Source: a virus. Taken from it: 30,900 nucleotides of DNA. The position numbers and the translations under genes are program-made. Under the pieces are notes generated by a model, which saw only the letters and a list, made by a program, of their open reading frames with translations, was not told where the DNA came from and made no database searches. Of this stretch, positions 155 through 30,089 are shown piece after piece. The stretch spans positions 1 through 30,900 of the IMG/VR virus record IMGVR_UViG_3300033143_000669. One strand, 5' to 3'. Within the stretch, counting starts at the first letter, position 1. Each line of letters begins with the position of its first letter.

Positions 155-2137
155 ATGAACAATGTAACAATCGAAGCAGTAAACATCAATGACGTTAACA
201 AATCAGCTATCCTGTCTACAGTGGCAAGTGAGCTGTTTCACAAAGGACTCAATCCACGTATTGCACTCATAACGGCTACAGCCTACATAGGTGCTATGGA
301 GTACTTGGATGACACTGACATGTTCATTGAGGCCTTCGTTGATGGTCTTGAGATAACTGAACTGTCTATCAAGGGTATGGATACACCGGATGATGCAATG
401 GATGTACAGGAGATAGTTGATGCACTAACAGCTGCCCAATACCTGGAAGAGGCCTTCCTAGTACCGGATGGTGATTCAACACATATTCCTGGCTTACGCA
501 TACAGGAGTTACTGGAACTAAGGCAGGAAGCATATGCTCCACCACTAGCAATGGATGGCATAACACGTAAGTTTGGTTATGCACCTACCAAGTACTCTGA
601 ACTGTTTAAAGAGGCTATTCATGCTCTTGAAGACACCAAGTACACAGTTGATGATACAATGATGTCAATTGCCTTACGTGTACTAGCTAAGACTGACAAG
701 GATGATGAAGAGGGTTATGTAATACGTGGCTGTGAGAAGATGGACAGTGATGATGCATACGTATCTGAGTTCAAAGGTGATACACGAGGTCGTATGTACC
801 AAGCATCATGTCATGGTCCGAATGGCCAGGCTAGTGACCGTAGTAGAGCATTGATGGACTTGTATGGTGTTAAGATGGATTACGATGCAAAGGATGCAAT
901 GGAAGTACTCAAGCATGAGATGAGTGATATGGTGTCTATTAAGGATAGACAGGCACGAGGTAGATTAGTGCAAGAGGCATGTCAGCATCCAGTTGACTTC
1001 ATCATCAAGCACGAAGATGGTGAGCTTTGTGTTAAGAAGCCTTGGTCATTTGTTAAGGCTGCAAAGACCTTAGCTGCTCTTCATAATCACATACACTATG
1101 ATTGTGTTAAGCCTTACATTGGAATGGCATTCGGTTATGATGCTAAATGTTCTGGTCCTCAACTGGGTTCTTTGATGGTTGGTGATGGTGACTTAGCTGC
1201 TGCTTGTGGGTTCTCAATGAAGCAGATAGAGGATGCATATCATCGTTGTATCAACTACTGTGACGCTGCTGGGTTTCATGGATTGACTAGAGAGTTGATT
1301 AAGAAGCCATTCATGGGTATCTTTTACGGTCAAGGCTGGATGGCTTTCATGAATCCAGATGAGCTTGAGAAGAACATGGGCAAGGCTGCTAGTCATGCAC
1401 TGTGGGTTGCTCTACATGGTGAGGAGATACTGGGCAATGAGAACAGAGCCAAGGAGTTTCATAAGGCAGTAACAGCATCATTTGGTGCTAAGATGATTTC
1501 CGTAAGGAATGCTATGAAGTCTTATACAAATAAGATTGAAGGCAAGGTAAGTCATCTACTACCTGATGGGTTTAAGGTTGCTATGAACTACAAGATGAAG
1601 GTTAACATCCTGGGTGAGTTGATGGACTTTGATACTGAAAAGCATGATGTGTTCCTACGAAACAACGTAGAGTCATACAAGTTTATCAATATGCAGATGA
1701 ACACTCAGACAGTTAATACCTCTGACTTTGTACGTAATGGCTTCGTTAACATGGTACAGGGAGTTGATGGGTTGATTGCTCGGTTGATAGTTGTTCACTG
1801 TAAGCGGTTAGGAGCTAAGCATATCATTGCTGTTCATGACTGTTTCAGAGTATCAGTGCATGACTTGGGCTTACTTAGGCAAGCAATCAAGAATGCATAC
1901 CGTGACCTGTTTGGTTCACTGAAGAATGTAGCAACTGATGACTTACCAGAAGGTACAGACATCCTGGGCTTATACTTCGATGGTATCAACAATCAACTGA
2001 AGCCTGAGAACTTTGATGATGCAATTGATATTAGTCAGTTCTTCACTTCAGGTACTCGTAGGCTCCAGAAGATACGTGGTGAGAAGGTTAATCACCTTAT
2101 CAGTGCATTAGGTCAGACTTACTACTTTGATAAGTAA
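155..2137 (+). CDS. Divergent single-subunit (T7-like) DNA-dependent RNA polymerase
   Basis: A 660-residue phage RNA polymerase of the T7/mitochondrial fold, expected to transcribe phage promoters. Visible motifs: DTRGRMY at 209-215 (T7 DxRGRxY), motif A YDAKCSGPQ with catalytic Asp 329 (T7 D537), motif B with Lys 383/384 and Tyr 391-Gly 392 in FYG (T7 K631, Y639-G640), and motif C VHDCF with His 561-Asp 562 (T7 H811-D812). It is about 220 residues shorter than T7 RNA polymerase, so the N-terminal promoter-binding domain must be reduced or different. It is very divergent from the second polymerase at 28233-30089, sharing little beyond the motifs. The start follows a weak AAAGAG. Catalytic fold is confident; promoter specificity and timing are unknown. 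Confidence 0.85.
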   Translation: MNNVTIEAVNINDVNKSAILSTVASELFHKGLNPRIALITATAYIGAMEYLDDTDMFIEAFVDGLEITELSIKGMDTPDDAMDVQEIVDALTAAQYLEEAFLVPDGDSTHIPGLRIQELLELRQEAYAPPLAMDGITRKFGYAPTKYSELFKEAIHALEDTKYTVDDTMMSIALRVLAKTDKDDEEGYVIRGCEKMDSDDAYVSEFKGDTRGRMYQASCHGPNGQASDRSRALMDLYGVKMDYDAKDAMEVLKHEMSDMVSIKDRQARGRLVQEACQHPVDFIIKHEDGELCVKKPWSFVKAAKTLAALHNHIHYDCVKPYIGMAFGYDAKCSGPQLGSLMVGDGDLAAACGFSMKQIEDAYHRCINYCDAAGFHGLTRELIKKPFMGIFYGQGWMAFMNPDELEKNMGKAASHALWVALHGEEILGNENRAKEFHKAVTASFGAKMISVRNAMKSYTNKIEGKVSHLLPDGFKVAMNYKMKVNILGELMDFDTEKHDVFLRNNVESYKFINMQMNTQTVNTSDFVRNGFVNMVQGVDGLIARLIVVHCKRLGAKHIIAVHDCFRVSVHDLGLLRQAIKNAYRDLFGSLKNVATDDLPEGTDILGLYFDGINNQLKPENFDDAIDISQFFTSGTRRLQKIRGEKVNHLISALGQTYYFDK

Positions 2138-2473
2138 GTAGGGCTTGGGAGGTAATTAGGCTAAGGAAGGCCTTACAATAGGGAGAAGGGCGATAGCCCA
2201 ATAGCATACCAATACCTGGGTTTCGCAGGAGTCTTGGGCGTTCCGGTAATATACCACTAGTTAGGACCTGATGACTTTACTATGAGAGGTCTCGCTACGC
2301 TCAACAGTCGTCGTTCCTCCTCAGGTAAAGCCAAACCCTAGTTAATCACAATAGGCCTCATCAGATTCTAAAAAGAAACTATACATATCTATCTAGGGAG
2401 ACTAGTTTAAGGGCTGAAGAGAACAGGTAAGGCTGTTCTGGCTCTGGTCTAACCTATTTAGTACACTTTAGAC

Positions 2474-2670
2474 CTGTCGAGAACCTTGACAAGGCCTGTC
2501 GGAATACTTAACTAGTCTGTCGAGAACCTTTACAGGTCTGGCTTGCTGTCGAGATTCTTAACAGTTCTGGTCGCGGGTCTGAGGCTGGCAGGCAGGTAAG
2601 GCCTAACAAGTCATTATGAGTTCTTATAGGACGGGTAGGACTGATTAGGTCTGTCGGGATACTTAACAGG
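2474..2670 (+). repeat. Five direct copies of a 19-bp element, CTGTCGRGAWNCTTNACAG-like
   Basis: Copies start at 2474, 2496, 2517, 2546 and 2651, all in the same orientation, at 22, 21, 29 and 105 base spacing. Four copies keep CTGTCGRGA-n-CTT-n-ACA; the copy at 2496 ends ACTA. The outer CTGT and ACAG are complementary in copies 3, 4 and 5, so each could be a small hairpin in RNA or a partly symmetrical protein site in DNA. A weaker relative (CCTGTTGAGGGTT) lies near 2792. Possible roles are iterons of an origin, an operator array or phage RNA-polymerase promoters; the sequence does not decide. Confidence 0.7.
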
Positions 2671-2817
2671 CTGGACAGTGCATTGTGAGTGCGCTTTGAC
2701 TACCTTTTATGCTTCGCTTTCTTGTAGGTATCAGGTGAGTCATGTCTATCCTGTTAAGCTTTCTCAAACCCTATTTAGGTACATGTCTATGACCTGTTGA
2801 GGGTTGTGGTATTTACT

Positions 2818-2843
2818 ATGAATCTTGCTAGGTACACTAGCTA
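2818..2843 (+). repeat. 26-bp leader repeat, copy 1 (hairpin without SD)
   Basis: Matches 3234-3259 at 23 of 26 positions. GCTAG and CTAGC form a 5-bp stem around the loop GTACA. The gene that follows (2860) uses a separate GGAG. Confidence 0.7.
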
Positions 2844-2859
2844 ATAACCGGAGAATAAC

Positions 2860-3006
2860 ATGAATGTAACAAGTAAACTACTGGCTGTGGATTGTCAGTA
2901 TAAAGAGAAAACATATACCTTCTACGTGCAACAATGTAGTGTACGTGGCTTGGAACCCTTAACTGAACGTGACTACATTACCCTTGGTAACAACTGTGAT
3001 GTTTAG
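2860..3006 (+). CDS. Small hypothetical protein, 48 aa
   Basis: ATG preceded by CCGGAG at 7-base spacing, the first gene after structured block 1. The 48-residue product is soluble-looking, with three cysteines (12, 26, 46) and no family I recognise. Its last codons overlap the next gene's ATG at 2999. Support is the strong ribosome binding site and tight packing only. Confidence 0.6.
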   Translation: MNVTSKLLAVDCQYKEKTYTFYVQQCSVRGLEPLTERDYITLGNNCDV

Positions 3007-3127
3007 TGAATTCCTTAGAGTTATAGGTTGGCCAATGGCAGTAGTTATGATACTATCAATAGCCATATCAATTTCTACTATGCTATTGATAGTCTTAGCA
3101 CTGTTTAAATATGTGTTCGGAAGTTAA
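2999..3127 (+). CDS. Small single-span membrane protein, 42 aa
   Basis: Begins inside the last codons of the preceding gene (8-base overlap), suggesting translational coupling, since no clear Shine-Dalgarno is present. A hydrophobic stretch at about residues 13-37 (AVVMILSIAISISTMLLIVL) predicts one membrane span. Function unknown. It is the first of a series of very small membrane proteins in this accessory region. Confidence 0.5.
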   Translation: MFSEFLRVIGWPMAVVMILSIAISISTMLLIVLALFKYVFGS

Positions 3128-3129
3128 CT

Positions 3130-3237
3130 ATGAAGTATGAGCTTGAAAGTGTTGCCAACTACTACGTGGGTGCTGTTATTAAATGCCTGTTCGTAGCTGT
3201 TGGTCTTATTATGGTACTTGCACTGTTTGTATCATGA
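3130..3237 (+). CDS. Small single-span membrane protein, 35 aa
   Basis: Starts two bases after the previous stop, so probably coupled to it. Residues 1-10 are polar and residues 12-35 hydrophobic (ending LIMVLALFVS), predicting a single C-terminal membrane span. No family recognised. Overlaps the first bases of leader repeat copy 2. Confidence 0.5.
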   Translation: MKYELESVANYYVGAVIKCLFVAVGLIMVLALFVS

Positions 3238-3259
3238 ATCTTGCTAGGAGGACTAGCTA
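3234..3259 (+). promoter_or_regulatory. 26-bp leader repeat, copy 2: ribosome binding site in hairpin loop
   Basis: Same element as 2818-2843. Here the 5-bp GCTAG/CTAGC stem holds GAGGA in its loop, which is the Shine-Dalgarno of the gene starting at 3259. The stem ends right at that start codon, so it could present or regulate the ribosome binding site. Confidence 0.6.
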
Positions 3260-3750
3260 TGCAAAGAAGAGTATTACATGCTGACAAGATGGTTGCTGTA
3301 AAAGAGTTGACTGCCTTTATGGTATCAACAGCTGGTATACTATCTAAATCTGGCTGGACTTGGTATGCATCTGGTGACAGAGCTATTACTGAATCATTTA
3401 CAGCTTTGAAAAAGTGTGGTAATTCGTTACCAATATCTATCTATGGTAGTGAGGGCACTGTCTATGGTGACAGGTTCATCAACAGCCTTAACAGGTTCTG
3501 GCACGATGTTACACACTTACAACTAGACTTAGGTTATTCTCTTGAAGAAGAGTACAAAGTAATCAGGTCTCAACTAACTGTTATGGAACTACATGGTTTA
3601 TCACCGCTTGCAAGAGAAATCTTTTGGTGTGACATGTGGGGCCAAGCACTCTACTATGACCGTTATTGCTCATTTGTAGAGAACCAAAATGCCTTCGTGG
3701 ACAGTTGTCTACGTCATGGTATAACAACGGCTACTATAGCCAAACATTAA
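3259..3750 (+). CDS. Hypothetical protein, 163 aa
   Basis: The ATG at 3259 is chosen because AGGAGGA lies just upstream; an in-frame TTG at 3241 would put the ribosome binding site inside the gene. The product (MQRRVLHADK...) is a soluble, tryptophan- and tyrosine-rich protein without a motif I recognise. It sits among accessory genes between structured blocks 1 and 2. Confidence 0.65.
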   Translation: MQRRVLHADKMVAVKELTAFMVSTAGILSKSGWTWYASGDRAITESFTALKKCGNSLPISIYGSEGTVYGDRFINSLNRFWHDVTHLQLDLGYSLEEEYKVIRSQLTVMELHGLSPLAREIFWCDMWGQALYYDRYCSFVENQNAFVDSCLRHGITTATIAKH

Positions 3751-3788
3751 TCTATCATAACTATTATTATTCTATTGGAGAATTACAA

Positions 3789-4241
3789 ATGACTTTACTT
3801 ACATCTTTATCAACAATGAAACGTGCCTCTGCTAATGAGCATGTTGCTAAGATTGAAATGACACCTACACAGATTGAACAAATGTCTGTTAAGCTTAAAG
3901 CACAAAACCGTATGAACGTGTACCCTAACCGCTTTGATGTTGCTGTACCTTTTCGTGTACAGACTCGCAAAGGCTCTGGTAAATCAGCCGTATTTACACA
4001 ACGTGGCTACTTCACAAATGTAGATGTTGCATCTGCTGTTGGTACTATCTGTTCTAAAGCTCTATATGCTGACAAAGCACTGGCTGGTGAATTCGACCCT
4101 GCTGTTGTTGAAGTACACCCAGAGTTCATAGCATGGTTAGCTGATGACCGTAACCAGGAGATTATTGCGATGGCTGAAGGTGGTACTGTTACAACTGTTG
4201 CCGGTACTACTCAGGAAACAGCTGAAGTTCCTGACTTCTAA
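3789..4241 (+). CDS. Hypothetical protein with acidic C-terminal tail ending EVPDF, 150 aa
   Basis: The ATG at 3789 follows TTGGAG at good spacing; a longer in-frame reading from 3666 would overlap the preceding gene. The body has a basic segment (RVQTRKGSGKSAVFTQRGYF, near residues 57-76) and a C-terminal threonine/acid-rich tail ending in Phe. The small acidic tail with terminal Phe recalls phage SSB-type protein-interaction tails and is shared in style with the genes at 10857 and 23544. A nucleic-acid-binding role is only a suggestion. Confidence 0.7.
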   Translation: MTLLTSLSTMKRASANEHVAKIEMTPTQIEQMSVKLKAQNRMNVYPNRFDVAVPFRVQTRKGSGKSAVFTQRGYFTNVDVASAVGTICSKALYADKALAGEFDPAVVEVHPEFIAWLADDRNQEIIAMAEGGTVTTVAGTTQETAEVPDF

Positions 4242-4324
4242 TGAATGCGTTCTGCGTATTCTGTAAATGGTTTATGTTAGTTGGCGTACCAATAGGTATT
4301 TGCCTGATTGTATACATAAGCTGA
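4241..4324 (+). CDS. Tiny membrane peptide, 27 aa
   Basis: The ATG shares its A with the stop of the preceding gene (TAATG), an arrangement used for translational coupling. The peptide has a hydrophobic stretch at about 10-26 (FMLVGVPIGICLIVYI) and is followed six bases later by a terminator hairpin, so it would be the last gene of this transcript. Function unknown. Confidence 0.45.
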   Translation: MNAFCVFCKWFMLVGVPIGICLIVYIS

Positions 4325-4329
4325 CCAAT

Positions 4330-4363
4330 AGCCTTGCCCAGTACATCGGGTGAGGCTTTCTTG
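4330..4363 (+). terminator. Intrinsic-terminator-like hairpin
   Basis: AGCCT 4330-4334 pairs with AGGCT 4353-4357 and CCC 4337-4339 with GGG 4348-4350, separated by a TG/TG internal loop; then TTCTT. The 15 bases GGCTTTCTTGGTAAG (4354-4368) recur exactly after the hairpin at 8195. Confidence 0.6.
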
Positions 4364-5014
4364 GTAAGCCTTTAACGTGAAGGTACAAAATCCATATCCT
4401 AGTTAAATTAAGCGAACGCGGAGGGCTAAGCACCGATATGTGCGGATAGCATAGGAATGGTAATGTTAGGAGTCGCAGAAATAACTGTACCCAATCAGGG
4501 AGTATAGCCCTGTTCGATTTCATTATGTTTAGCCTCAATGACCCAGTGCGACTTGCACAGTGTAGAGGCACTTTATTAAGATACACCCTTCTTACGGTGA
4601 CTAACTTGTATTACGCTAAAACCAGAGCAAAGTTAGATGAGGCAGACCCTCTGTGGGTGTATCTATTTATTATGTAGGTTACTAACATCTAGTACTATTT
4701 AGCCCACAGCGGAGCTAGACTGGTATGGTGAAGATGTTAGAAGTGGGCCTCTGTTATCTGGGTAATGATAACAAGCTCTGGGTGCAGTTCCCGAACCTAC
4801 CCCAATTCAAGGGTACTAAGCACACCTGTTAGGCTGACTGGTCTGGAAAGACTATTAGCAGCAACGTGCCAGTTATGTGTGGTAAAACTACTTACTCAAG
4901 GGTAAGCGGAGGAGGATGGCCTTCCATAGCAAGTAAGGTGCCAAGGGTTGACCTTGGTTAAATGTATTGGTGGACAATGCAGCCTAACCTAATTATTATT
5001 AACCGGAGAGAACA
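4364..5014 (+). ncRNA. Structured non-coding block 2 with 10-bp closing stem and H-type pseudoknot
   Basis: No convincing gene on either strand. Perfect pairings: AGATACACCC 4579-4588 with 4655-4664 (10 bp), enclosing CTAACTT 4601-4607 with AAGTTAG 4630-4636 (7 bp). Next comes an H-type pseudoknot, CTAACATC 4682-4689 with GATGTTAG 4733-4740 (8 bp) interleaved with GCCCAC 4702-4707 and GTGGGC 4743-4748 (6 bp). Further hairpins are TGTTATC/GATAACA (near 4752-4773) and CCAAGG/CCTTGG (near 4941-4957), plus smaller stems at about 4495-4515. The number and length of perfect stems argue for a folded RNA. No known RNA class recognised. Confidence 0.65.
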
Positions 5015-5188
5015 ATGTCAAAGATTATACAGTTCCACAAGAAGGCACCTGTAGAAAACAAGTGTTCTTTCTGTAATACACCTGAGAGTAAAGTCAAGAA
5101 ATTGATAAGTAATGGCTTAAACAAGTTTATATGTGACAAGTGTATCACTACCTGTAAGAAGTTAATTACAGAAGATATAGTAGCATGA
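5015..5188 (+). CDS. Free-standing ClpX-type C4 zinc-binding domain protein
   Basis: A 57-residue protein that is essentially only the N-terminal zinc-binding domain of the ClpX unfoldase. It has CSFC (Cys 17, 20) and CDKC (Cys 40, 43), with the ClpX-like spacer SKVKKLI and the trailing CITTCKKLI matching the bacterial pattern CSFCGKS...RKLI...CDECVDLC. The AAA+ ATPase that normally follows is absent. In bacteria this domain dimerises and binds adaptors (SspB) and substrates such as lambda O and MuA, so a phage copy could compete with or redirect host ClpXP; this role is inference. GGAGAG precedes the ATG. It is the first gene after structured block 2, and its stop overlaps the next start (ATGA). 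Confidence 0.85.
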   Translation: MSKIIQFHKKAPVENKCSFCNTPESKVKKLISNGLNKFICDKCITTCKKLITEDIVA

Positions 5189-5424
5189 GCCATTTAATGT
5201 CTACCATACGTCAAGGTACTATTAGTGATGCTAACTTGATTAAATGGATACTAAACTACGGACCAGAAGGTTGTTACGAAGGTGATATGCCCAGGGATAG
5301 GATTTGTGGTAACATAGCCAGCCATCATCATGTATGGTGTGCTATTAACTTATTTGAATCTCGTGCTGAGAAGATAGTTCTAACTAAATTTAACAAGGGC
5401 TTTATAAGTCCTCTGAGGCAATAA
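5185..5424 (+). CDS. Hypothetical protein, 79 aa
   Basis: ATGA overlap with the ClpX-domain gene implies coupled translation. The product contains a His-rich/Cys segment (CGNIASHHHVWC, near residues 42-53) that might bind metal, but no family is recognised. An ATG four codons later (5197) is an alternative start. Confidence 0.6.
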   Translation: MSHLMSTIRQGTISDANLIKWILNYGPEGCYEGDMPRDRICGNIASHHHVWCAINLFESRAEKIVLTKFNKGFISPLRQ

Positions 5425-5425
5425 C

Positions 5426-5836
5426 ATGAGTATTACATTCCATTTAACAAGTACTAAAGCAGGTGAGCTACAAGAACGCTACCCTGACCGAGACATGCGC
5501 TTAGTTGATGTCTATACAAACCTGGGAGACTACTTCGAGGACATGGATGACACAGAACATGTATACTCAGGACACTTCTTCACACATGGTGAGGGCTGGT
5601 GTATGACTGAATCAACCATACCTGAAGTTAACATGAGCAACAGCAATGCGCGTTACGTGCTTAATGATATTCTTAACCTCAACACACAAGAACATTGTGG
5701 TGACATAGAAGACCTACACCAGGCTCGTATTAGTTGTATATTACACACTCATCCAAATTGCTACTATGCTATACCAACACTTAAAGATTTATTAACATTA
5801 GCCATAGATAACGGCTGGGGAGTATACTGGGCATGA
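5426..5836 (+). CDS. Hypothetical protein, 136 aa
   Basis: Starts one base after the preceding stop, with GAGG upstream. An acidic soluble protein (MSITFHLTSTKAGELQ...) with several Cys and His in its second half (EHCGD, SCILHTHPNCYY). No family recognised. Ends with an ATGA overlap into the next gene. Confidence 0.65.
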   Translation: MSITFHLTSTKAGELQERYPDRDMRLVDVYTNLGDYFEDMDDTEHVYSGHFFTHGEGWCMTESTIPEVNMSNSNARYVLNDILNLNTQEHCGDIEDLHQARISCILHTHPNCYYAIPTLKDLLTLAIDNGWGVYWA

Positions 5837-6048
5837 ACTACCTTGACAAATACAACAGCATCAGCCAAGCACATAAACTGGCTGTTGATGCTTGGGCCTT
5901 ATCACAATGCTACAAAATGTATGTAGATACCTGTGACCGTGAAGGCACTATACCAGTTACTGAAAAAGTATACAGTAACATGAAAGTTAACCTGGACATT
6001 CAAATGATGAAAGATTGGGATAACCAGCAAGGTGAAAGTGATGACTAG
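5833..6048 (+). CDS. Hypothetical protein, 71 aa
   Basis: Starts in an ATGA overlap with the upstream gene. Predicted mostly helical and soluble with an acidic end (QQGESDD). No motif recognised. Its end overlaps the next ATG at 6041. Confidence 0.6.
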   Translation: MNYLDKYNSISQAHKLAVDAWALSQCYKMYVDTCDREGTIPVTEKVYSNMKVNLDIQMMKDWDNQQGESDD

Positions 6049-6373
6049 GAGTGTACAACATTACTGTACTCGATGTGGCACTAAACACGTCAACCATCCT
6101 GCGTACTGTAAAGCTAAGAAAGTGGCCTCAGTCAAACATGCTGACTATCCAATGTCTCGTCTGAACAAGTCAGAGCCAGAAACAACGCTCATATATGTTT
6201 GGCCTGATGGTGAATGGTGCTACACAGATGAGCTACATGAATACCAAGACAAGTCTGATGACTACTTACTCATACCTGTTGATGCTAGTCTCGATGAAGA
6301 ACAAGTCGGTGTCCTAGTTATGAACACGTACAACCCTAGCCAAACAACATCACACCCTGAGGAACACTACTAA
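6041..6373 (+). CDS. Hypothetical protein with N-terminal zinc-knuckle-like motif, 110 aa
   Basis: The ATG at 6041, overlapping the previous gene's end, is preferred over an in-frame GTG at 6032 because GGTGA sits just upstream. Residues near the start, YCTRCGTKHVNHPAYC, give a CxxC followed by His and Cys that could bind one zinc ion. The rest is acidic. Function unknown; protein or nucleic-acid binding is a guess. Confidence 0.6.
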   Translation: MTRSVQHYCTRCGTKHVNHPAYCKAKKVASVKHADYPMSRLNKSEPETTLIYVWPDGEWCYTDELHEYQDKSDDYLLIPVDASLDEEQVGVLVMNTYNPSQTTSHPEEHY

Positions 6374-6834
6374 TGAAAAAGTACATCTTAATAACAATCT
6401 GGTCCTGCCTCTTAGGATTATTATGTATCTCTGTGGGCAGTCTAAACGCTGCTCCGGACCTATTACTACCTGCATATACCAAACATATACAGTATGACAA
6501 CGAAATAGACTACACTGAGGGATTTGATAATACCTCGATAGGCCTAAACTGGTCTTTCCCTCATGCTGACTTAGGCTCTGCTTATGTATTTAAGAACTCC
6601 CACGATAAACCATCTATATATAACTATGCAATTGGTTATGTAAACCCTACAGGCGTTAAAATGGGTGGTGGAATATTGGCAGCTGTCGGAGGTTATGATG
6701 TTCCTATTATTTTAGGACCTGTCTTCGCTGTAAAATATGGTTGGGTTAGACTTGTCACCACATACCCTATAGGAAAGCTAAATGGTGCTGACTTTGACTT
6801 ACTTAATGTACAATTAATGATACCACTGGAGTAG
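6373..6834 (+). CDS. Secreted protein, probable small outer-membrane beta-barrel, 153 aa
   Basis: The N-terminus is a classical signal peptide: basic MKK, hydrophobic core (ILITIWSCLLGLLCISVG), and a likely cleavage after SLNA before APD at about residue 26. The mature part lacks helical membrane spans and is rich in alternating aromatic/hydrophobic and glycine-rich strands (IGYVNPTGVKMGGGILAAVG, KYGWVRLVTTYPIG), ending in QLMIPLE, compatible with a small beta-barrel. A secreted barrel made during lytic infection could act at the cell surface, for example in superinfection exclusion; that is inference. Shares one base (ATG/TAATG) with the upstream stop. Confidence 0.65.
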   Translation: MKKYILITIWSCLLGLLCISVGSLNAAPDLLLPAYTKHIQYDNEIDYTEGFDNTSIGLNWSFPHADLGSAYVFKNSHDKPSIYNYAIGYVNPTGVKMGGGILAAVGGYDVPIILGPVFAVKYGWVRLVTTYPIGKLNGADFDLLNVQLMIPLE

Positions 6835-6836
6835 AT

Positions 6837-7019
6837 ATGTCACACCCTCAAGAACCTGATAATAGCTGGATAGGCCTTATGCTTGTCGCAGCTCTAATAA
6901 TTGCTATTGCACTTGAACTTTCAGGTGTAGTACGCGCACCTACCAACAAGTCAGAACTCTGTTCATGCATCATCGTACCCATTGACTCAGTTCCTAAACC
7001 TATAACGGAGGAAGCATGA
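6837..7019 (+). CDS. Small single-span membrane protein, 60 aa
   Basis: Starts three bases after the beta-barrel gene with CTGGAG upstream. Residues about 11-30 (WIGLMLVAALIIAIALELSG) form one membrane helix; the following tail has a CSC motif and ends acidic. Function unknown, but its position suggests it acts with the secreted protein before it. Confidence 0.6.
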   Translation: MSHPQEPDNSWIGLMLVAALIIAIALELSGVVRAPTNKSELCSCIIVPIDSVPKPITEEA

Positions 7020-7105
7020 TACCTAAATTTATTAAGTTCGTTCTAATTATCTGGTTACTACTGTTATGTACAAGCATGTACAACATGTTAACCATAGGTA
7101 CATAG
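7016..7105 (+). CDS. Tiny membrane peptide, 29 aa
   Basis: ATGA overlap with the preceding gene, with GGAGGAAGC just upstream as a strong ribosome binding site. Mostly hydrophobic (FIKFVLIIWLLLLC), one predicted span. No family recognised. Confidence 0.5.
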   Translation: MIPKFIKFVLIIWLLLLCTSMYNMLTIGT

Positions 7106-7107
7106 CA

Positions 7108-7176
7108 ATGGAAACTTGTAAAGAGATTATACTTGGGCTACTACTTATAATCCTGTTGATGTTGCAATGTAGTTAA
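7108..7176 (+). CDS. Tiny membrane peptide, 22 aa, possible lipoprotein-like end
   Basis: Starts two bases after the preceding stop; ribosome binding site unclear. METCKEIILGLLLIILLMLQCS is almost entirely one hydrophobic helix ending in Cys-Ser. It may be a coupled microprotein or a chance frame; its place in a run of similar peptides favours the former. Confidence 0.35.
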   Translation: METCKEIILGLLLIILLMLQCS

Positions 7177-7180
7177 TTTC

Positions 7181-7197
7181 ACATATTAATCTAGGAG
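7181..7197 (+). repeat. 17-bp leader repeat, copy 1
   Basis: ACATATTAATCTAGGAG, identical to 8480-8496. It includes the Shine-Dalgarno of the gene at 7207. Confidence 0.75.
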
Positions 7198-7206
7198 AAC
7201 CCTACT

Positions 7207-8178
7207 ATGATACCTGATAACAAGTCAGAACCAACAAAGATTCCAGTCAAAGACTTCATAACTCTTGCTGACCTCAAATGTATGATTGAGTCCACTGTAC
7301 TAACTATCATGAACGATAGGTTATATCACAGTGCTGCTGAACATTCTCTTGAATCTCGTGGATTCTTACCAATACCACTAGTCAGAGATGCTATGAGGGA
7401 CTCTGGTGATGGCTTATACAGTAAGTTCATAAACCTTAACAAGCACCCAACTCACAAAGTTATAATACGTCATCGTATTGGTATGGAAGTGGCAGAACTC
7501 ATGGATAAGCGGTACAAGAAAAAAGTAAGTAGTTTAACTATTGAAAAGTTGGCTGCTGAATACCATCCTAAAATTAACTGGACAGGCTTAGAAAGTAAAA
7601 TCACAAGTCACATTACAGCTACTGCCTTTAACGAAATGCGAGAAGCTGAAAAGGTGCGGTGGTTGAATAGTTTATATGAACCAGACACTAACAAGGATAG
7701 CTTATATGCTAAAGATGTATGTGCATTCCTAAGTGATAAAGAGCCTCGCAATCCTTGTTCAGAGATTCCACTTAGCCCCAACATAGTTCACGCTATTGAT
7801 AGTAAGCTTGAGGCTATGATTCATGTAAAGCGTGAAGGAATGGAAAAGCAAATCAAGAAAGTTCACATGGCACTACTGTATGGTGCTGGTGAAGAAATAA
7901 TTAACTCAACTTTAACAGGCATTAAGCCGGAGAAACCTATGATACCCTCAGCACCAGCACAACCAATGAACACATCAACAGCAGCACGTAACCTTAACGA
8001 AGTATTTGGCGTTATCATCACTGGTAAAGACAAAGCTTCTATCATGGCAATGATACGTCAAGCTAAGTCCGAAGTAGAAGCCTTCGCAGACCTGGACCAA
8101 AGTTCAGCGTATGTTGAAAAGCAAGTTAAAACTATCAACGCTGGCATCAAAGAATTGTATGCTGAACTTGATAAGTAG
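7207..8178 (+). CDS. Hypothetical protein, 323 aa
   Basis: Largest unrecognised gene of the accessory region; start set by AGGAG in the 17-bp leader repeat. Highly charged, predicted mainly helical, with a basic central part (MDKRYKKKV near residue 100), a linker rich in Pro/Ala/Thr (near 245-260) and a C-terminal helical segment (KASIMAMIRQAKSEVEAF). There is no enzymatic motif I recognise. It is the last gene before an intrinsic terminator at 8195. Confidence 0.7.
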   Translation: MIPDNKSEPTKIPVKDFITLADLKCMIESTVLTIMNDRLYHSAAEHSLESRGFLPIPLVRDAMRDSGDGLYSKFINLNKHPTHKVIIRHRIGMEVAELMDKRYKKKVSSLTIEKLAAEYHPKINWTGLESKITSHITATAFNEMREAEKVRWLNSLYEPDTNKDSLYAKDVCAFLSDKEPRNPCSEIPLSPNIVHAIDSKLEAMIHVKREGMEKQIKKVHMALLYGAGEEIINSTLTGIKPEKPMIPSAPAQPMNTSTAARNLNEVFGVIITGKDKASIMAMIRQAKSEVEAFADLDQSSAYVEKQVKTINAGIKELYAELDK

Positions 8179-8194
8179 TAAATAGTAACAAGTC

Positions 8195-8220
8195 AGCTCA
8201 TCTTCGGATGGGCTTTCTTG
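8195..8220 (+). terminator. Intrinsic-terminator-like hairpin with TTCG tetraloop
   Basis: AGCTCATC 8195-8202, TTCG, GATGGGCT 8207-8214: eight pairs with one GU, then TTCTT. The tail GGCTTTCTTGGTAAG (8211-8225) is identical to that at 4354-4368. Confidence 0.65.
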
Positions 8221-8506
8221 GTAAGAATTATGTGGTCATACGAGGAGGGCAATATCGGCTGAGTTGAGTCTCAGTGCCTGTCCAAAGTTCCTAAGAAAAT
8301 ACATGTTAGCCAATGGCTTCGCGAGTCATAAGCACATTAGGAATAGGATAGGGTTCGCAGGTTCAATCCCTGCTGACTTCAGCACACAGTGTAGCTACTT
8401 AGTAGTGAACAACGAGGCGACTGTACGCGCCTACAACCTTGGAAACTTGGAGAGACTGTGTGGTACACAAACATATTTTACATATTAATCTAGGAGGAAT
8501 ATCCTA
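8221..8506 (+). ncRNA. Structured non-coding block 3 with tRNA-like T arm
   Basis: No credible gene; the 74-codon frame at 8264-8488 lies over the structures and lacks a ribosome binding site. Stems: a hairpin at 8257-8279 (GGC-TGAG with CTCA-GT-GCC) and TTCCTAA 8288-8294 with TTAGGAA 8337-8343 (7 bp). GCAGG-TTCAATC-CCTGC at 8357-8373 is exactly the shape and loop of a tRNA T arm, and TGACT 8374-8378 can pair with AGTCA near 8325. AGGCG/CGCCT and TGTGT/ACACA hairpins follow. No acceptor, D arm or anticodon arm can be completed, so I do not call a tRNA. It may be a tRNA-like domain or tRNA remnant. Confidence 0.55.
8480..8496 (+). repeat. 17-bp leader repeat, copy 2
   Basis: Identical to 7181-7197; supplies AGGAGG for the gene at 8507. 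Confidence 0.75.
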
Positions 8507-9070
8507 ATGTTACAACATGAGAACAAGCAGGTATTAGACTTGCTATGCTTTATGAAGGACCTGGGCTTCGACTTTGAAGTGCTTGGTGGTTATCCACGAG
8601 ACTTACACTTTGGCCGTATTCCTCGTGACATGGATATATGCTGTTGGAATTGCAAACCTGATACAGTCATCTGGAGAGACAAGTTCATGAAACTGCACTC
8701 GTATCTAAAAGATGTTGGCATCTACAAGGATGAGTTTGCTGTTAATAGTGAGTACCCTTCAGACCGAATCTTTGGAGGTCTAAGGACAACTGTCGATGTT
8801 GACATCATCTTCTGGATGGAAAACTTTACTTCGGCAGAAGCTATTCTAGGCTGGTTTGACTACAATATTAACCAATTCCGTCTAGTACGTGACGAGGACA
8901 CCGGTATTGTTGCTGGTAAGCCTTGGGAAGGTCTGATGAAGTTTGGGCAGTTACAACAATTGCGCGAGTCAGAACTATCTGATGTACGCATAAGGAACAC
9001 ACACAAACTTGCCAGAGATGTTGACTGGCTTGACAAAACTAACTTATTATACCCTTGGGGTGGAGAGTAA
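8507..9070 (+). CDS. CCA-adding/poly(A)-polymerase-type nucleotidyltransferase
   Basis: A 187-residue protein with the signature of the Pol-beta superfamily branch that contains tRNA CCA-adding enzymes and poly(A) polymerases: VLGGYPRDLHFGRIPRDMDI, with Gly 27-Gly 28, Arg 31-Asp 32 and the metal-binding pair Asp 41/Asp 43. A third carboxylate is in VDVDIIF (Asp 97 or 99). INQFRLV...DTGIV resembles the family's later conserved segment. It is only the catalytic head; the C-terminal tRNA-binding domains (usual length near 400) are missing. Possible roles are tRNA 3'-end repair, RNA tailing or toxin-like modification. AGGAGG precedes the ATG. It sits directly after the tRNA-like block 3. Confidence 0.75.
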   Translation: MLQHENKQVLDLLCFMKDLGFDFEVLGGYPRDLHFGRIPRDMDICCWNCKPDTVIWRDKFMKLHSYLKDVGIYKDEFAVNSEYPSDRIFGGLRTTVDVDIIFWMENFTSAEAILGWFDYNINQFRLVRDEDTGIVAGKPWEGLMKFGQLQQLRESELSDVRIRNTHKLARDVDWLDKTNLLYPWGGE

Positions 9071-9071
9071 T

Positions 9072-9380
9072 ATGAACGGTAAGAAAGCAAAAATGCTACG
9101 TAAGTTAGCAGGTCCTAAATCGGACACACAGTACACTGTCGAGGAAAGTACCATTCGTGGTAAGTTTATAAACGTAAGTCCTAAGATAAATGTTCATGGT
9201 AAACAGGTAGTTGATGATGACGGTAATGTAGTATATAATCGTTTAGAGTGGACTACTGCAACAATCATGATGGCTGCTGGTACACGTATGATAAGTAAAG
9301 TTCTGAAGAACATATATCATAATCGTACTCGTAACCTGCATGTCAATATTCACACACCTGTAGCACCTGCTCAGGCATAA
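9072..9380 (+). CDS. Hypothetical basic protein, 102 aa
   Basis: The ATG at 9072 follows GGTGGAG and starts just after the nucleotidyltransferase stop; an upstream in-frame start would overlap that gene. Basic N-terminus (MNGKKAKMLRKLAGPK) and a basic middle (RMISKVLKNIYHNRTR) could bind nucleic acid. No family recognised. Confidence 0.65.
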   Translation: MNGKKAKMLRKLAGPKSDTQYTVEESTIRGKFINVSPKINVHGKQVVDDDGNVVYNRLEWTTATIMMAAGTRMISKVLKNIYHNRTRNLHVNIHTPVAPAQA

Positions 9381-14577: not shown

Positions 14578-16313
14578 TGGCTTGTGTAGAGAAATTACCC
14601 TGTCCCGATTGTGGAGGTAGTGATTGCTTACAGTCCTTTTACAATGAAGGGCCTGACAATTACTCAAGCTTCTGCTTCGGCTCATGTTACGAACCAAAGG
14701 GCAACCCTTATAAGAAGGGTGAGGCACCAGAGGTTAAGATTAAAAGTCCTGAAGAGATTCAGGCTGAGATAAAAGAGATACAGAAATGTTCTATCTTTAA
14801 GGGCCTGGGTCCGAATAAGAACCACCGAGGTATTCCTGGTGCGTTCTTTAATAGCTGGAGTGTACGACTACTCATATCTGAATATGATGGAGTAACACCC
14901 TATGCAGTTGGTTTCCCTTACTCTGATGAAGCCAAGTTATCAGGCTGGAAAGTTATACCTTTGAAGAAGAAGGACTTCTGGAGCCTGGGTGCTACTAAAG
15001 GTTCTGACCCGTTTGGTTTCGAGAGGGCTATGAAGATTGGTGGTAAGCGTCTGTATATCACTGAAGGTGAGTATGATGCTATTGCACTGGACTATGCTCT
15101 GGTGGAGGCTAATAAAAACTCTAAGTATGCCAAGAAGATGTACCCAGTTATCAGCCTGTCACAGGGCGGTGGTAGTATTGCTCACAACCTGAAGAAGATA
15201 CGTAAGCGTATTAAGAGCCGGTTCAAAGAAATAGTACTAGTGCTGGACAACGATGAAGTTGGTATGAAGGCTGAGAAGACCGCACAGGCTCTTATGCCGA
15301 ACATTCTAAGGGCTGATAAGCCTAGTGGATGCAAGGATGCCAATGATGCCATACGCAAGAGCAAAGATGCACTATTTAGTTTGGCCCGTATGGTCATGTG
15401 GGAGGCTCACAAGCCACCTATCGAAGGCGTGGTACGTGTGTCGTCAGTTCTGGCGAAAGCCCTGGAGAAGCCAACCTACGGCTTGTCATACCCATCCGAA
15501 GAGCTGACTGAGATGACTTACGGACAACGGTTCGGTGAAGCGGTCTGTCTCGGTGCAGGGGTTGGTGTTGGTAAGACCGTGACAGCTCACTGGTTTGGTG
15601 CTCATAACATGACAGTTCATAACGAACCATGCTTCATGATACTGCTGGAAGAACAGAACCACTTTACTGTTAAGAACATAGCATCCAAGATAGATTCAAT
15701 ACCTTATGCTAATCCTAACACTGAGTACAACCCTGACCAGCTTATAGCGACTGCTGAAGGCCTACAGGATAAGTTGTACATGTGGGAGTCTGAAGGAGAC
15801 CAGGCTCTGAGATTTGAGATGGACGAGATACTATCTGCCATTAGATTTAATGCAGAAGAGTATGGCTGTCGATTTGCTTATCTTGACAATTTCACGAGGT
15901 TAGTAGACCACCTCCCTCCAAGCGAGGCAAACGAGTTTATAAACAAGTATAGCTCTGAGATTGAGGGCCTGGCTACACAACTAGACATTCACATTATGGC
16001 CTACTCTCACCTTAACCCATCTAAGTCTGGGCATAGTCACGAAGAAGGCGCACCAGTATACGCAAGTCAGTTCACTGGCTCACGAGGTATCATGCGAAGC
16101 TTTCCAATGCTGTTTAATTTCAGAAGAAATAAACATGCTGACAAGAACCTGGGTATGTCTGCTAATAACTCTCTTTTTGGTGTCATGAAGAACCGGAAAT
16201 ATGGTAATGAAGGTGACATACGTACTCAGTACAAGCCGGCTACTGGACAACTAATTGAGTATGCTTGGGAAGGTGAATTAGAGAACCCAATGAAGGATAA
16301 GAAATATGGATAA
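14577..16313 (+). CDS. DNA primase-helicase, T7 gp4-like
   Basis: A 578-residue bifunctional replication enzyme. An N-terminal zinc ribbon with Cys 9, 12, 33 and 37 recognises the primer site. The TOPRIM domain has ITEGEYDAIA (Glu 163) and LDNDEVG (Asp 224/Asp 226) for primer synthesis. The C-terminal RecA-like helicase has Walker A GAGVGVGKT (Lys 333), LLEEQ as the catalytic-glutamate region, Walker B-like FAYLDNF, and the GSRGI...RNK segment. Length is close to T7 gp4 (566). It unwinds the fork and primes for the DNA polymerase at 17737. Its stop overlaps the RNA-ligase-like gene. Confidence 0.93.
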   Translation: MACVEKLPCPDCGGSDCLQSFYNEGPDNYSSFCFGSCYEPKGNPYKKGEAPEVKIKSPEEIQAEIKEIQKCSIFKGLGPNKNHRGIPGAFFNSWSVRLLISEYDGVTPYAVGFPYSDEAKLSGWKVIPLKKKDFWSLGATKGSDPFGFERAMKIGGKRLYITEGEYDAIALDYALVEANKNSKYAKKMYPVISLSQGGGSIAHNLKKIRKRIKSRFKEIVLVLDNDEVGMKAEKTAQALMPNILRADKPSGCKDANDAIRKSKDALFSLARMVMWEAHKPPIEGVVRVSSVLAKALEKPTYGLSYPSEELTEMTYGQRFGEAVCLGAGVGVGKTVTAHWFGAHNMTVHNEPCFMILLEEQNHFTVKNIASKIDSIPYANPNTEYNPDQLIATAEGLQDKLYMWESEGDQALRFEMDEILSAIRFNAEEYGCRFAYLDNFTRLVDHLPPSEANEFINKYSSEIEGLATQLDIHIMAYSHLNPSKSGHSHEEGAPVYASQFTGSRGIMRSFPMLFNFRRNKHADKNLGMSANNSLFGVMKNRKYGNEGDIRTQYKPATGQLIEYAWEGELENPMKDKKYG

Positions 16314-16845
16314 CGTAGAATTTAAAGCTTGGCCTAAGATTTACCGAGACAGCCCTTTCAATGTAACTATCACTGAAAAGATTAACGGCACTAATGCCTG
16401 TATTATAATTCAGGAAGGTATCATTGTAGGTATACAATCTCGTAAGCGTTTTATTACGCCTGAAGATGATAACTATGGCTTTGCCGGTTGGGTACAACGT
16501 AACGGTGAAGAGCTTCTTAAACTTGGTGATGGCTATCATTATGGTGAGTGGGCTGGCTTGGGTATCCAAGGCAATGAGCTGAACTTGCCAGAGAAACAAC
16601 TGTTCCTGTTTAACACCTTCCGGTGGAATCCAGAGAACCCTAACTTGCCTTCTTGTTGCAAGGTCGTACCAATACTATTCCAGGGCTTGATTGCACCTGA
16701 CACAGTATCTAATATGTTACAGGAAATGGACAAGGCTACTGATGTGATACATGAGGGTGTCATTGTATACTATCATGCACATCGTGGTTACTCGAAACAT
16801 ACCATCAAGCTACCGAAAGGTAAGTGGGCATGGCAGGAAGAATAG
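16306..16845 (+). CDS. RNA-ligase-family nucleotidyltransferase (adenylyltransferase domain only)
   Basis: A 179-residue protein with the covalent nucleotidyltransferase motifs: motif I EKINGTN (Lys 25 predicted to be adenylylated), Ia-like GIQSRKR, motif III YGEWAGLGIQ, motif IV HEGVIVYY and motif V IKLPKGKW. GEW-x-GxGIQ is typical of the Rnl2/RNA_ligase family. No C-terminal domain is present, so this is a minimal enzyme, distinct from the DNA ligase at 27164. It may repair nicked RNA such as tRNA cut by host defence nucleases, as T4 RNA ligases do; the substrate here is unknown. Confidence 0.78.
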   Translation: MDNVEFKAWPKIYRDSPFNVTITEKINGTNACIIIQEGIIVGIQSRKRFITPEDDNYGFAGWVQRNGEELLKLGDGYHYGEWAGLGIQGNELNLPEKQLFLFNTFRWNPENPNLPSCCKVVPILFQGLIAPDTVSNMLQEMDKATDVIHEGVIVYYHAHRGYSKHTIKLPKGKWAWQEE

Positions 16846-28232: not shown

Positions 28233-30089
28233 ATGGCGAAGATTAAATTAGAGGGTGGTATTGAGTTACCAGCCCCGAAGAATGCAACAGGCTTCGCTAG
28301 ACCTCAAGATATTTCCGATTACCGGTGGAGGTCTATGCGACCTGAGATGTGGCAACGAGCGTATACTCATTGTCTGTTTAGTTTGCATAACCTCTTTGAA
28401 TTACCCTTACACTCTGTCGTACCACACATGACTAAGCACATGTTAGAGGCTGACCAGCCATTTTTAGTTGCTCTTCGGTTTATGGGTGAGATGGAGTTGC
28501 AAGGGTATATCAAGTTCAATAGAGGTTTTGATGAGCGTATAGTTGTACCAACTAAGAAGCTGCTGGACCTGAAGATTTCTGAAGAGGAAGCTCCAGATAC
28601 CGTAGTCGTTATGCCTAACATAGTTGGTGAAGAGTACATGTCAAAGTACATTGCTGTTCGTGGTGGCCGGAGAAGTTCTTCCAACCTACGTGCTGCCCGT
28701 ATTGTAAATGATATGTCTGATGAAAGGTTTGTAATTAATGGTTACATACTGGACCTACTTAAGAAGTACCCTGTAGAGAAGGATGCTATCACTGATGGGT
28801 GTATGTATGCACGTACTCTCACTACTGCTGAGAAGCTTAAGGACAAGGTATTTCGTTTTCCTTACTTCCTGGACTCTCGTGGACGGATGTATAGTGCCAC
28901 AACCTGTGGTGTTAGCCCTCAAGGAGCTGACCATGAGAAGGCTTTGCTGCTACCAGTTTATGCTGAAAGGCTAACTACTGATGGCTTTATGGCTTTGTTC
29001 GAGACTGCAACAGGCTATGCTGAGCAGGACTGGGATTTCCAAAAGATGGCTGGACATGCTAGGCATCCTGAACTACATGAGAAGGAATGGAAGACCGCAG
29101 ACAAGCCCTACTCATATATGGCTACGGCTAATCTGATTGCTCAGTACCTCGATGACCCTACAAGACCTTTGCCAGCGTTCATACCTTTGGACGGACGATG
29201 CTCTGGCTTACAACATTGGAGTGCTGTCATACGTTCTAACGCAATTACTAGGCACTTAGGAATGAATGCCGATGAATCCAGTTTAGACATCTATGAAAGG
29301 ATTGCTCTTGAGTGGTGTGAAACCTTAGAAGAACAGTATAAGTACCTAGCTACCAGAAAAGCAGCTAAGATACCTGTAATGACTTGGGCTTACAATGCAA
29401 CTCAAATGACCTCAATGGCTCATATGGATAAACTGTATGGGACTGAGGATAAGTGGGATGTCGAGTTAGAATCATATAAGCCTACTCGTGAGGGCTTCCC
29501 TCGTGCCGTTACAGGGCATTTAGGGCGTGACTTATACAATCGCCTCAATGAGACCCTCGGACCGCTTACGTCAGCTGTGGAGTGGGTTTCTGACAGTGCT
29601 ACGTTAATATCAAAAGATGGAAATGTAGATATTGAATGGCCGACACCTGATGGATTTGAATGCGTTCAACGGAAGGTCAAGGGCGATGAGAAAGTACTTA
29701 AGGTTGTTCTAAGCAACAAGGCAAAGTTCAAACTGAAGATACTTGATTTCACAGGACAGAAGTCTGATAGTCGGAAGCATAGAAGTGCTATTGCTCCTAA
29801 CATAATACATAGCTTAGATGCTACTCATTTACGAATGGTTGCTAAGAAGCTTAAGATGTTAGGTAGTCCAATGATATTTATACATGATTCCTTTGCGACT
29901 CATGTTAACTTTCGAGCCAGCCTGTATCGTGAAATTATTGATGCCTTCATTACATTATACTCAAGGGAGTACTTGTTAGACTTGAAGACTTATTGGGAGA
30001 AGAAGTACAAGGTAGAACTACCAGACCAACCAGACCTTGGAGATTGGGAGCCAGAAAGCCTCCGAAATCTTACGAATTTCTTCATGTAA
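28233..30089 (+). CDS. Single-subunit (T7-like) DNA-dependent RNA polymerase, second copy
   Basis: A 618-residue T7-fold RNA polymerase with complete motifs: LDSRGRMYS (214-221), motif A LDGRCSGLQHWSA (Asp 320, T7 D537), motif B with Lys 379 and Tyr 387, and motif C IHDSFATHV (His 551-Asp 552, T7 H811-D812), with NIIHSLDATHLR before it. It is closer to canonical T7 polymerases than the copy at 155. Oddities: 265 residues shorter than T7 RNA polymerase, and motif B reads AYN where most have AYG. Placed after the DNA metabolism genes and just before packaging genes, it probably drives late transcription; this is inference. CTGGAG precedes the start and a strong terminator follows. Confidence 0.95.
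   Translation: MAKIKLEGGIELPAPKNATGFARPQDISDYRWRSMRPEMWQRAYTHCLFSLHNLFELPLHSVVPHMTKHMLEADQPFLVALRFMGEMELQGYIKFNRGFDERIVVPTKKLLDLKISEEEAPDTVVVMPNIVGEEYMSKYIAVRGGRRSSSNLRAARIVNDMSDERFVINGYILDLLKKYPVEKDAITDGCMYARTLTTAEKLKDKVFRFPYFLDSRGRMYSATTCGVSPQGADHEKALLLPVYAERLTTDGFMALFETATGYAEQDWDFQKMAGHARHPELHEKEWKTADKPYSYMATANLIAQYLDDPTRPLPAFIPLDGRCSGLQHWSAVIRSNAITRHLGMNADESSLDIYERIALEWCETLEEQYKYLATRKAAKIPVMTWAYNATQMTSMAHMDKLYGTEDKWDVELESYKPTREGFPRAVTGHLGRDLYNRLNETLGPLTSAVEWVSDSATLISKDGNVDIEWPTPDGFECVQRKVKGDEKVLKVVLSNKAKFKLKILDFTGQKSDSRKHRSAIAPNIIHSLDATHLRMVAKKLKMLGSPMIFIHDSFATHVNFRASLYREIIDAFITLYSREYLLDLKTYWEKKYKVELPDQPDLGDWEPESLRNLTNFFM

Follow-up and report, generated by a model that had tools for sequence, protein, structure and literature searches.

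The gene at 5015-5188 and its neighbourhood

The window, i.e. the whole virus record of 30,900 bases analysed here (such records may be fragments), encodes on its plus strand a protein of 57 amino acids, MSKIIQFHKKAPVENKCSFCNTPESKVKKLISNGLNKFICDKCITTCKKLITEDIVA, in a complete open reading frame (ORF) with an ATG start and a TGA stop at 5015-5188 (Table 1). The cysteine motifs that the initial annotation had read as CSFC...CDKC occur exactly so in the translation, and its description of a 57-residue ClpX-type zinc-binding domain (ZBD) protein lacking an ATPase is borne out by the complete ORF and by the absence of a family for the next gene; no ATPase was found downstream. The start codon is preceded by GGAGAGAAC. 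The leader listed in Table 1 is the same in both orthologs described below except for one base, and its exact match is unique within the window. For an ORF on the opposite strand (4999-5193, 64 amino acids), which is present in the ORF list, no support for coding was obtained.

Immediately 5' of the ZBD gene lies a hairpin, GGTGCCAAGGGTTGACCTTGG, which is kept in contig L002. The region directly upstream of the gene, 4242-5014, comprises about 770 nt without a supported gene and gave neither an Rfam nor a tRNA match; it is shorter in contig L001, and in L002 an ORF divides it.

Table 1 ZBD gene of the window, its sequence features and neighbour, and ZBD proteins without ATPase from other phages
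Feature	Position	Strand	Basis or remark
ClpX-type ZBD gene, free-standing, 57 aa	5015..5188	+	Pfam, PDB, AlphaFold, VIA, orthologs (89% and 84%)
Leader with ribosome-binding site, TATTAACCGGAGAGAACA	4997..5014	+	Just upstream of ZBD start codon
First CxxC knuckle, C17-S18-F19-C20, codons	5063..5074	+	Translation
Altered adaptor loop, S32-N33-G34-L35-N36-K37, plus F38, codons	5108..5128	+	Column statistics
Second CxxC knuckle, C40-D41-K42-C43, codons	5132..5143	+	Translation
79-aa protein	5185..5424	+	ORF; start overlaps ZBD stop (ATGA)
BUCT566 gp74, 65 aa			Solo ZBD
EM gp107, 59 aa			Solo ZBD
Caulobacter phage Cr30, frame of about 61 aa			Solo ZBD; annotation shorter
D6 protein, 106 aa			ZBD C-terminal
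P88 protein, 110 aa			ZBD C-terminal

Two other phage contigs, L001 and L002, keep all 57 codons (89% and 84% identity) and share the gene order with the window, comprising the left neighbour at 3783-4241 and the coupled right neighbour at 5185-5424. In the stretch compared, the ZBD is the most conserved protein common to the window and either contig; an RNA polymerase-like protein reaches 85%. The dN/dS ratios of the three pairs were 0.31, 0.16, and 0.15 by the NG86 method, with similar values by maximum likelihood; the YN00 estimate for the closest pair was 0.57. Since identity is high and nonsynonymous change constrained, the gene is under purifying selection and very probably functional, and a chance ORF is excluded because two contigs keep the same 57 codons with dN/dS of 0.15-0.31. 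The gene for the 79-residue protein, which occupies the same position in both contigs (73% and 49% identity) and matched neither a family nor a phage protein, is probably translationally coupled to the ZBD gene. A broken or truncated clpX gene was considered and rejected, as a downstream ATPase is absent and relatives have kept the small frame. That the gene is a functionless remnant of a former phage clpX would accord with the presence of complete ClpX in other phages, but it is highly improbable in view of the purifying selection, the highest identity among the shared proteins, the precise gene ends, and the conserved ribosome-binding site.

Family assignment and predicted fold

In the Pfam database the protein matched zf-C4_ClpX (PF06689) with an E value of 3.6e-13 and 49.6 bits (cut-off 27), residues 16-53 being aligned to positions 2-39 of the 39-position profile, and both orthologs also scored above the cut-off (43.4 and 50.9 bits). 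No other Pfam family appeared at E values up to 1, the presence of the Gin model in the library being unconfirmed. The ClpX models of NCBIfam were matched in their N-terminal part only (33 and 23 bits versus full-length cut-offs of 359 and 371), and by the AAA+ domain and the full-length cut-off that define the ClpX unfoldase the 57-residue protein does not qualify as one. The convincing matches of a sequence search in the PDB were exclusively solved ClpX chains, at E values of 2e-6 to 1e-4. The cysteines C17, C20, C40, C43, and C47 are all present, the zinc ligands in their CSFC and ICxxC context and C47 being an additional conserved cysteine located four residues past the last ligand; these five, including both cysteines of the first knuckle, are invariant in the 147 ClpX ZBDs used for comparison, a set chosen by a pattern that itself requires them.

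An AlphaFold model, computed from 39 aligned sequences that were taken from the window and from phage contigs, has the structure of a ClpX ZBD with a mean pLDDT of 83.7 (85 to 94 per ten-residue block over residues 11-50) and a last helix at residues 41-56. Foldseek assigned a probability of 1.0 to ClpX and the isolated ClpX ZBD only, the other matches listed having 0.7 or less. Structural alignment by VIA to ClpX ZBD entries gave Z values of 6.9 (ClpX-ClpP model), 6.7 (2ds8, with an rmsd of 0.9 Å over 41 residues), 6.6, 6.2, 5.8, and 4.3, and for non-ClpX structures Z values of 3.2 or below; small domains yield small Z values, and the gap to unrelated structures is clear. Matches in BFVD comprised generic zinc fingers and a few small proteins of phages, of which one is named 'Clp protease' (phage PP9W2). 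CsfB was absent among the structural matches listed by Foldseek and VIA. An unrelated zinc ribbon, the outcome of a sequence search that the initial annotation had named as speaking against its reading, was rejected, as zf-C4_ClpX is the sole scoring family and ClpX entries alone stand out by fold. Sequence, profile, and predicted fold thus support the proposed identity, and it is near certain that the product is a free-standing N-terminal ZBD of the ClpX type, i.e. a treble clef with four cysteines.

Surface, charge, and loop in comparison with ClpX

The phage protein shares with the ZBD of ClpX (PF06689; PDB 1OVX, 2DS5-2DS8) the four cysteines in the same knuckles, the fold, and the hydrophobic core, but has no AAA+ domain, a loop longer by one residue, a replaced surface, and the opposite charge. 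The positions were compared with 147 ClpX ZBDs from cellular genomes and viral contigs, a non-random sample gathered by similarity searches, whose cellular side is mostly gammaproteobacterial. Besides the cysteines, S18 (94% of the 147), F19 (99%), V27, L30, I31, I39, and I51 are kept. Among the residues forming the hydrophobic pocket of the ZBD (PMC7804408), the equivalent of Phe16 is retained and Ile46 is conservatively replaced by leucine. At the surface, threonine takes the place of ClpX K22 (147/147) and L46 (142/147), and lysine that of E26 (acidic in 88%), V37 (never basic), N48, D49 (acidic in 77%), and E42, the glutamate of the CxEC knuckle motif of ClpX (142/147). D45 (acidic in 80%) is replaced by threonine or isoleucine in the phage orthologs and is the exception among the charge changes, most surface replacements being identical in the three orthologs. 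The 'ClpX-like spacer and tail' of the initial annotation holds in part, the spacer being one residue longer and most conserved surface positions being different; likewise, in the alignment to bacterial ClpX which it had suggested as a check, the cysteines and the hydrophobic core are kept and nearly all conserved surface positions replaced.

The core net charge of the three orthologs is +3, +3, and +5, compared with a mean of -2.6 (s.d. 1.4, maximum 0) for the 75 distinct ClpX ZBDs on which charge was computed. Relative to ClpX, the reversal arises from E26K, V37K, E42K, D45T, N48K, and D49K. Of 44 window proteins checked, only one is more basic than the ZBD protein, and since 70% of the 44 are net negative, the charge of the ZBD protein does not reflect a general bias of the phage. 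A basic surface would suit a nucleic acid or an acidic partner other than ClpX equally well. Treble clefs often bind nucleic acid, and with a net charge of +6 in 57 residues the protein lies, per residue, in the range of the endonuclease VII of the window. It might bind DNA or RNA, e.g. phage RNA from the untranslated 770 nt upstream, where 4242-5014 lacks a supported gene and 4330-5020 folds better than 20 shuffled sequences (z -2.4). Such a role is nevertheless rather improbable, as the precedents for ClpX-type ZBDs are protein or peptide binding and as one relative has a shorter upstream stretch, while that of the other is broken up by an ORF.

The loop A-G-P-S(-V-Y) of ClpX is changed to S-N-G-L-N(-K-F) with one inserted residue (N33), and the three orthologs differ in its sequence. 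Residues 120-123 of human CLPX serve as the docking site of an adaptor (PMC7647994) and would by their sequence context correspond to the A-G-P-S loop. The conserved features of the ZBD as an adaptor platform in ClpX, namely the acidic surface and this loop, are absent from the phage protein, which concerns its use in the manner of ClpX and not its membership in PF06689. This bears on the earlier suggestion that the protein 'could occupy adaptors', taken here to mean that as a free ZBD it binds SspB, RssB-like adaptors, or ZBD-recognized substrates and starves ClpX of them. The isolated ZBD of Escherichia coli acts in this way on RssB-dependent degradation in vitro (PMC7226468), and the pocket phenylalanine is retained. 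A mimic, however, should keep the surface read by adaptors, whereas near-invariant positions carry K22T, E42K, L46T, and D49K and the probable docking loop is altered, longer, and variable. Because the surface is replaced, the charge reversed, and the loop altered, we favour simple occupation of adaptors less than the other reading directed at ClpX, and we regard a decoy as improbable.

Solo ClpX ZBDs in other phages

Solo ClpX ZBDs of phages are a recurrent and already annotated, apparently unstudied kind of protein, named 'ClpX C4-type zinc finger protein' by NCBI, with representatives in phages of Pseudomonas, Escherichia, and Caulobacter and with many copies in E. coli phage-plasmids. PHROG 6797 and 12435 belong to this kind, and among the related families in PHROGs the function is unassigned or given as 'protease'. 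Complete ClpX proteins are encoded by Agrobacterium phage Atu_ph07, Bacillus phage G, Paride, and Phosso. Viral contigs encode a relative at 235 places; the best 80 of these include 14 ZBD proteins that are solo or armed, the two orthologs among them, and the remainder are mostly of ClpX length. A scan of GTDB genomes with the P88 protein gave full-length frames in 79 of the 80 matches listed, nearly all matches in 143 gammaproteobacterial genomes lay within frames of ClpX length, and no close relative of the window protein was found in GTDB genomes. A degenerate DNA pattern search of viral contigs for charge-reversed relatives returned only the two known orthologs. The ZBDs of non-orthologous proteins in frames without a recognized ATPase motif have core charges of -6 to 0. 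The solo ZBDs of BUCT566, EM, Cr30, D6, and P88 thus resemble the window protein in being small and having a ZBD without an ATPase, but such proteins are acidic or neutral and many are armed, whereas that of the window is minimal and basic. The class is already annotated, and new here is a charge-reversed, loop-altered variant of it, for whose function we offer a proposal. No functional study of phage ClpX ZBD proteins and nothing direct on phage inhibitors of ClpXP was found in the open-access literature, subscription journals lying mostly outside this search.

The D6 (L006 1806-2126) and P88 (L008 1809-2141) proteins, in which a helical-looking arm precedes the ZBD, are annotated as 'carboxylate--amine ligase', apparently a misannotation. 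In Pseudomonas phage BUCT566 (L004 1786-2183), a gene for a DksA/TraR-type zinc finger protein is followed with a one-base overlap by the solo ZBD gene. A weak ZBD match (33%, E value 0.3) lies under a sigma-70 family gene of the Tolypothrix plasmid NZ_CP050445.1 (4056-4184), and a paper on cyanobacterial sigma factors (PMC11119718) is indexed as naming zf-C4_ClpX once.

Possible function of the phage ZBD

ClpXP sets the lifetime of many regulators, and the ZBD dimer of ClpX serves as the docking platform for adaptors and for some substrates (PMC7804408, PMC7647994, PMC7226468). Genes consisting of a ZBD alone are candidates for ClpXP modulators of very small size, or cases in which the fold has been adopted for other targets; the kept core together with the reversed charge fits either pairing with the host ZBD or a retargeted role apart from ClpX. 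We infer for the phage ZBD zinc binding, dimerization, a partner, and an effect on ClpXP; its partner is probably a host component, perhaps ClpX, and the protein would then be a small, probably dimer-forming docking protein directed against the host. In E. coli, ZBD supplied in trans competitively inhibits the RssB-dependent degradation of sigmaS by ClpXP (PMC7226468). The SPO1 protein Gp53, adaptor-like and acting on ClpC (PMC6873191), is likewise a phage protein aimed at a host Clp unfoldase, which for the window protein is a proposal from sequence; Gp53 differs in its size of 25 kDa, its target, and its experimentally demonstrated function.

The best explanation, which we advance tentatively, is that the phage ZBD forms pairs with its acidic counterpart in host ClpX via the retained hydrophobic dimer face, whose residues were judged by conservation rather than from coordinates, the opposite charge assisting the pairing. 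Host adaptors and ZBD-dependent substrates would then dock abnormally on ClpX, by which the output of ClpXP during infection might be blocked or redirected. The mixing of the phage protein into host ClpX, as considered in the initial annotation, is possible, and L46T, at a position occupied by leucine in 142 of 147 ClpX ZBDs of the sample described above, could weaken the pairing with ClpX. More speculative still is the further step that the basic solo ZBD acts as a charge-complementary partner which dissolves or replaces the ZBD dimers of the host; if true, the phage would reprogram which proteins the host destroys, and to our knowledge this would be the first regulator of ClpXP derived from a domain of ClpX itself. 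The N-terminus, MSKIIQFHKK, resembles the N-terminus of lambda O recognized by ClpX; the likeness is weak, as one ortholog has T for K, and it carries no weight in the proposal.

The strongest rivals to pairing with ClpX are roles not involving it, i.e. the binding of nucleic acid discussed above and an activity of the anti-sigma type. By the latter, the phage ZBD would bind a sigma factor or RNA polymerase and shut down or redirect host transcription as CsfB/Gin of Bacillus subtilis (PDB 5N7Y), a small free-standing treble clef whose homodimer finds its closest structural match in the ClpX ZBD and which inhibits sigmaG and sigmaE (PMC5890618). The two single-subunit RNA polymerase-like proteins encoded in the window and the gene overlap in BUCT566 are in line with this role. 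CsfB, however, has about 20% identity to the ClpX ZBD and other dimer contacts, and its authors doubt a common ancestry with ClpX (PMC5890618), whereas the window protein matches ClpX by sequence and Pfam at E values up to 1 returns zf-C4_ClpX only. Transcription control is rather improbable.

Further features of the window

By its gene content, the phage is a podovirus-like tailed phage with replication proteins of the T7 type. The window encodes a primase/helicase, an exonuclease, endonuclease VII, a single-stranded DNA-binding protein, DNA ligase, RNA polymerase, and ribonucleotide reductase, and its DNA polymerase has 46-49% identity to those of Pseudomonas phage GP100, Salinivibrio phage CW02, and PA11-like phages. 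The two RNA polymerase-like proteins (155-2137 and 28233-30089) are different from each other, and both belong to PHROG 414 (E values of 6e-33 and 2e-75). No tRNA genes were found in the window, and a scan of 2100-9100 for sigma-70 promoters gave sites no more numerous than in shuffled sequences. A predicted RNA ligase (16306-16845) and a predicted nucleotidyltransferase (8507-9070) could form an RNA repair set. The non-coding region 2474-2668, located after an RNA polymerase-like gene, contains four near-identical copies of the imperfect palindrome CTGTCGAGANNCTTNACA (0.06 expected), which are clustered likewise in L001 (2128-2301) and look like iterons or operators.
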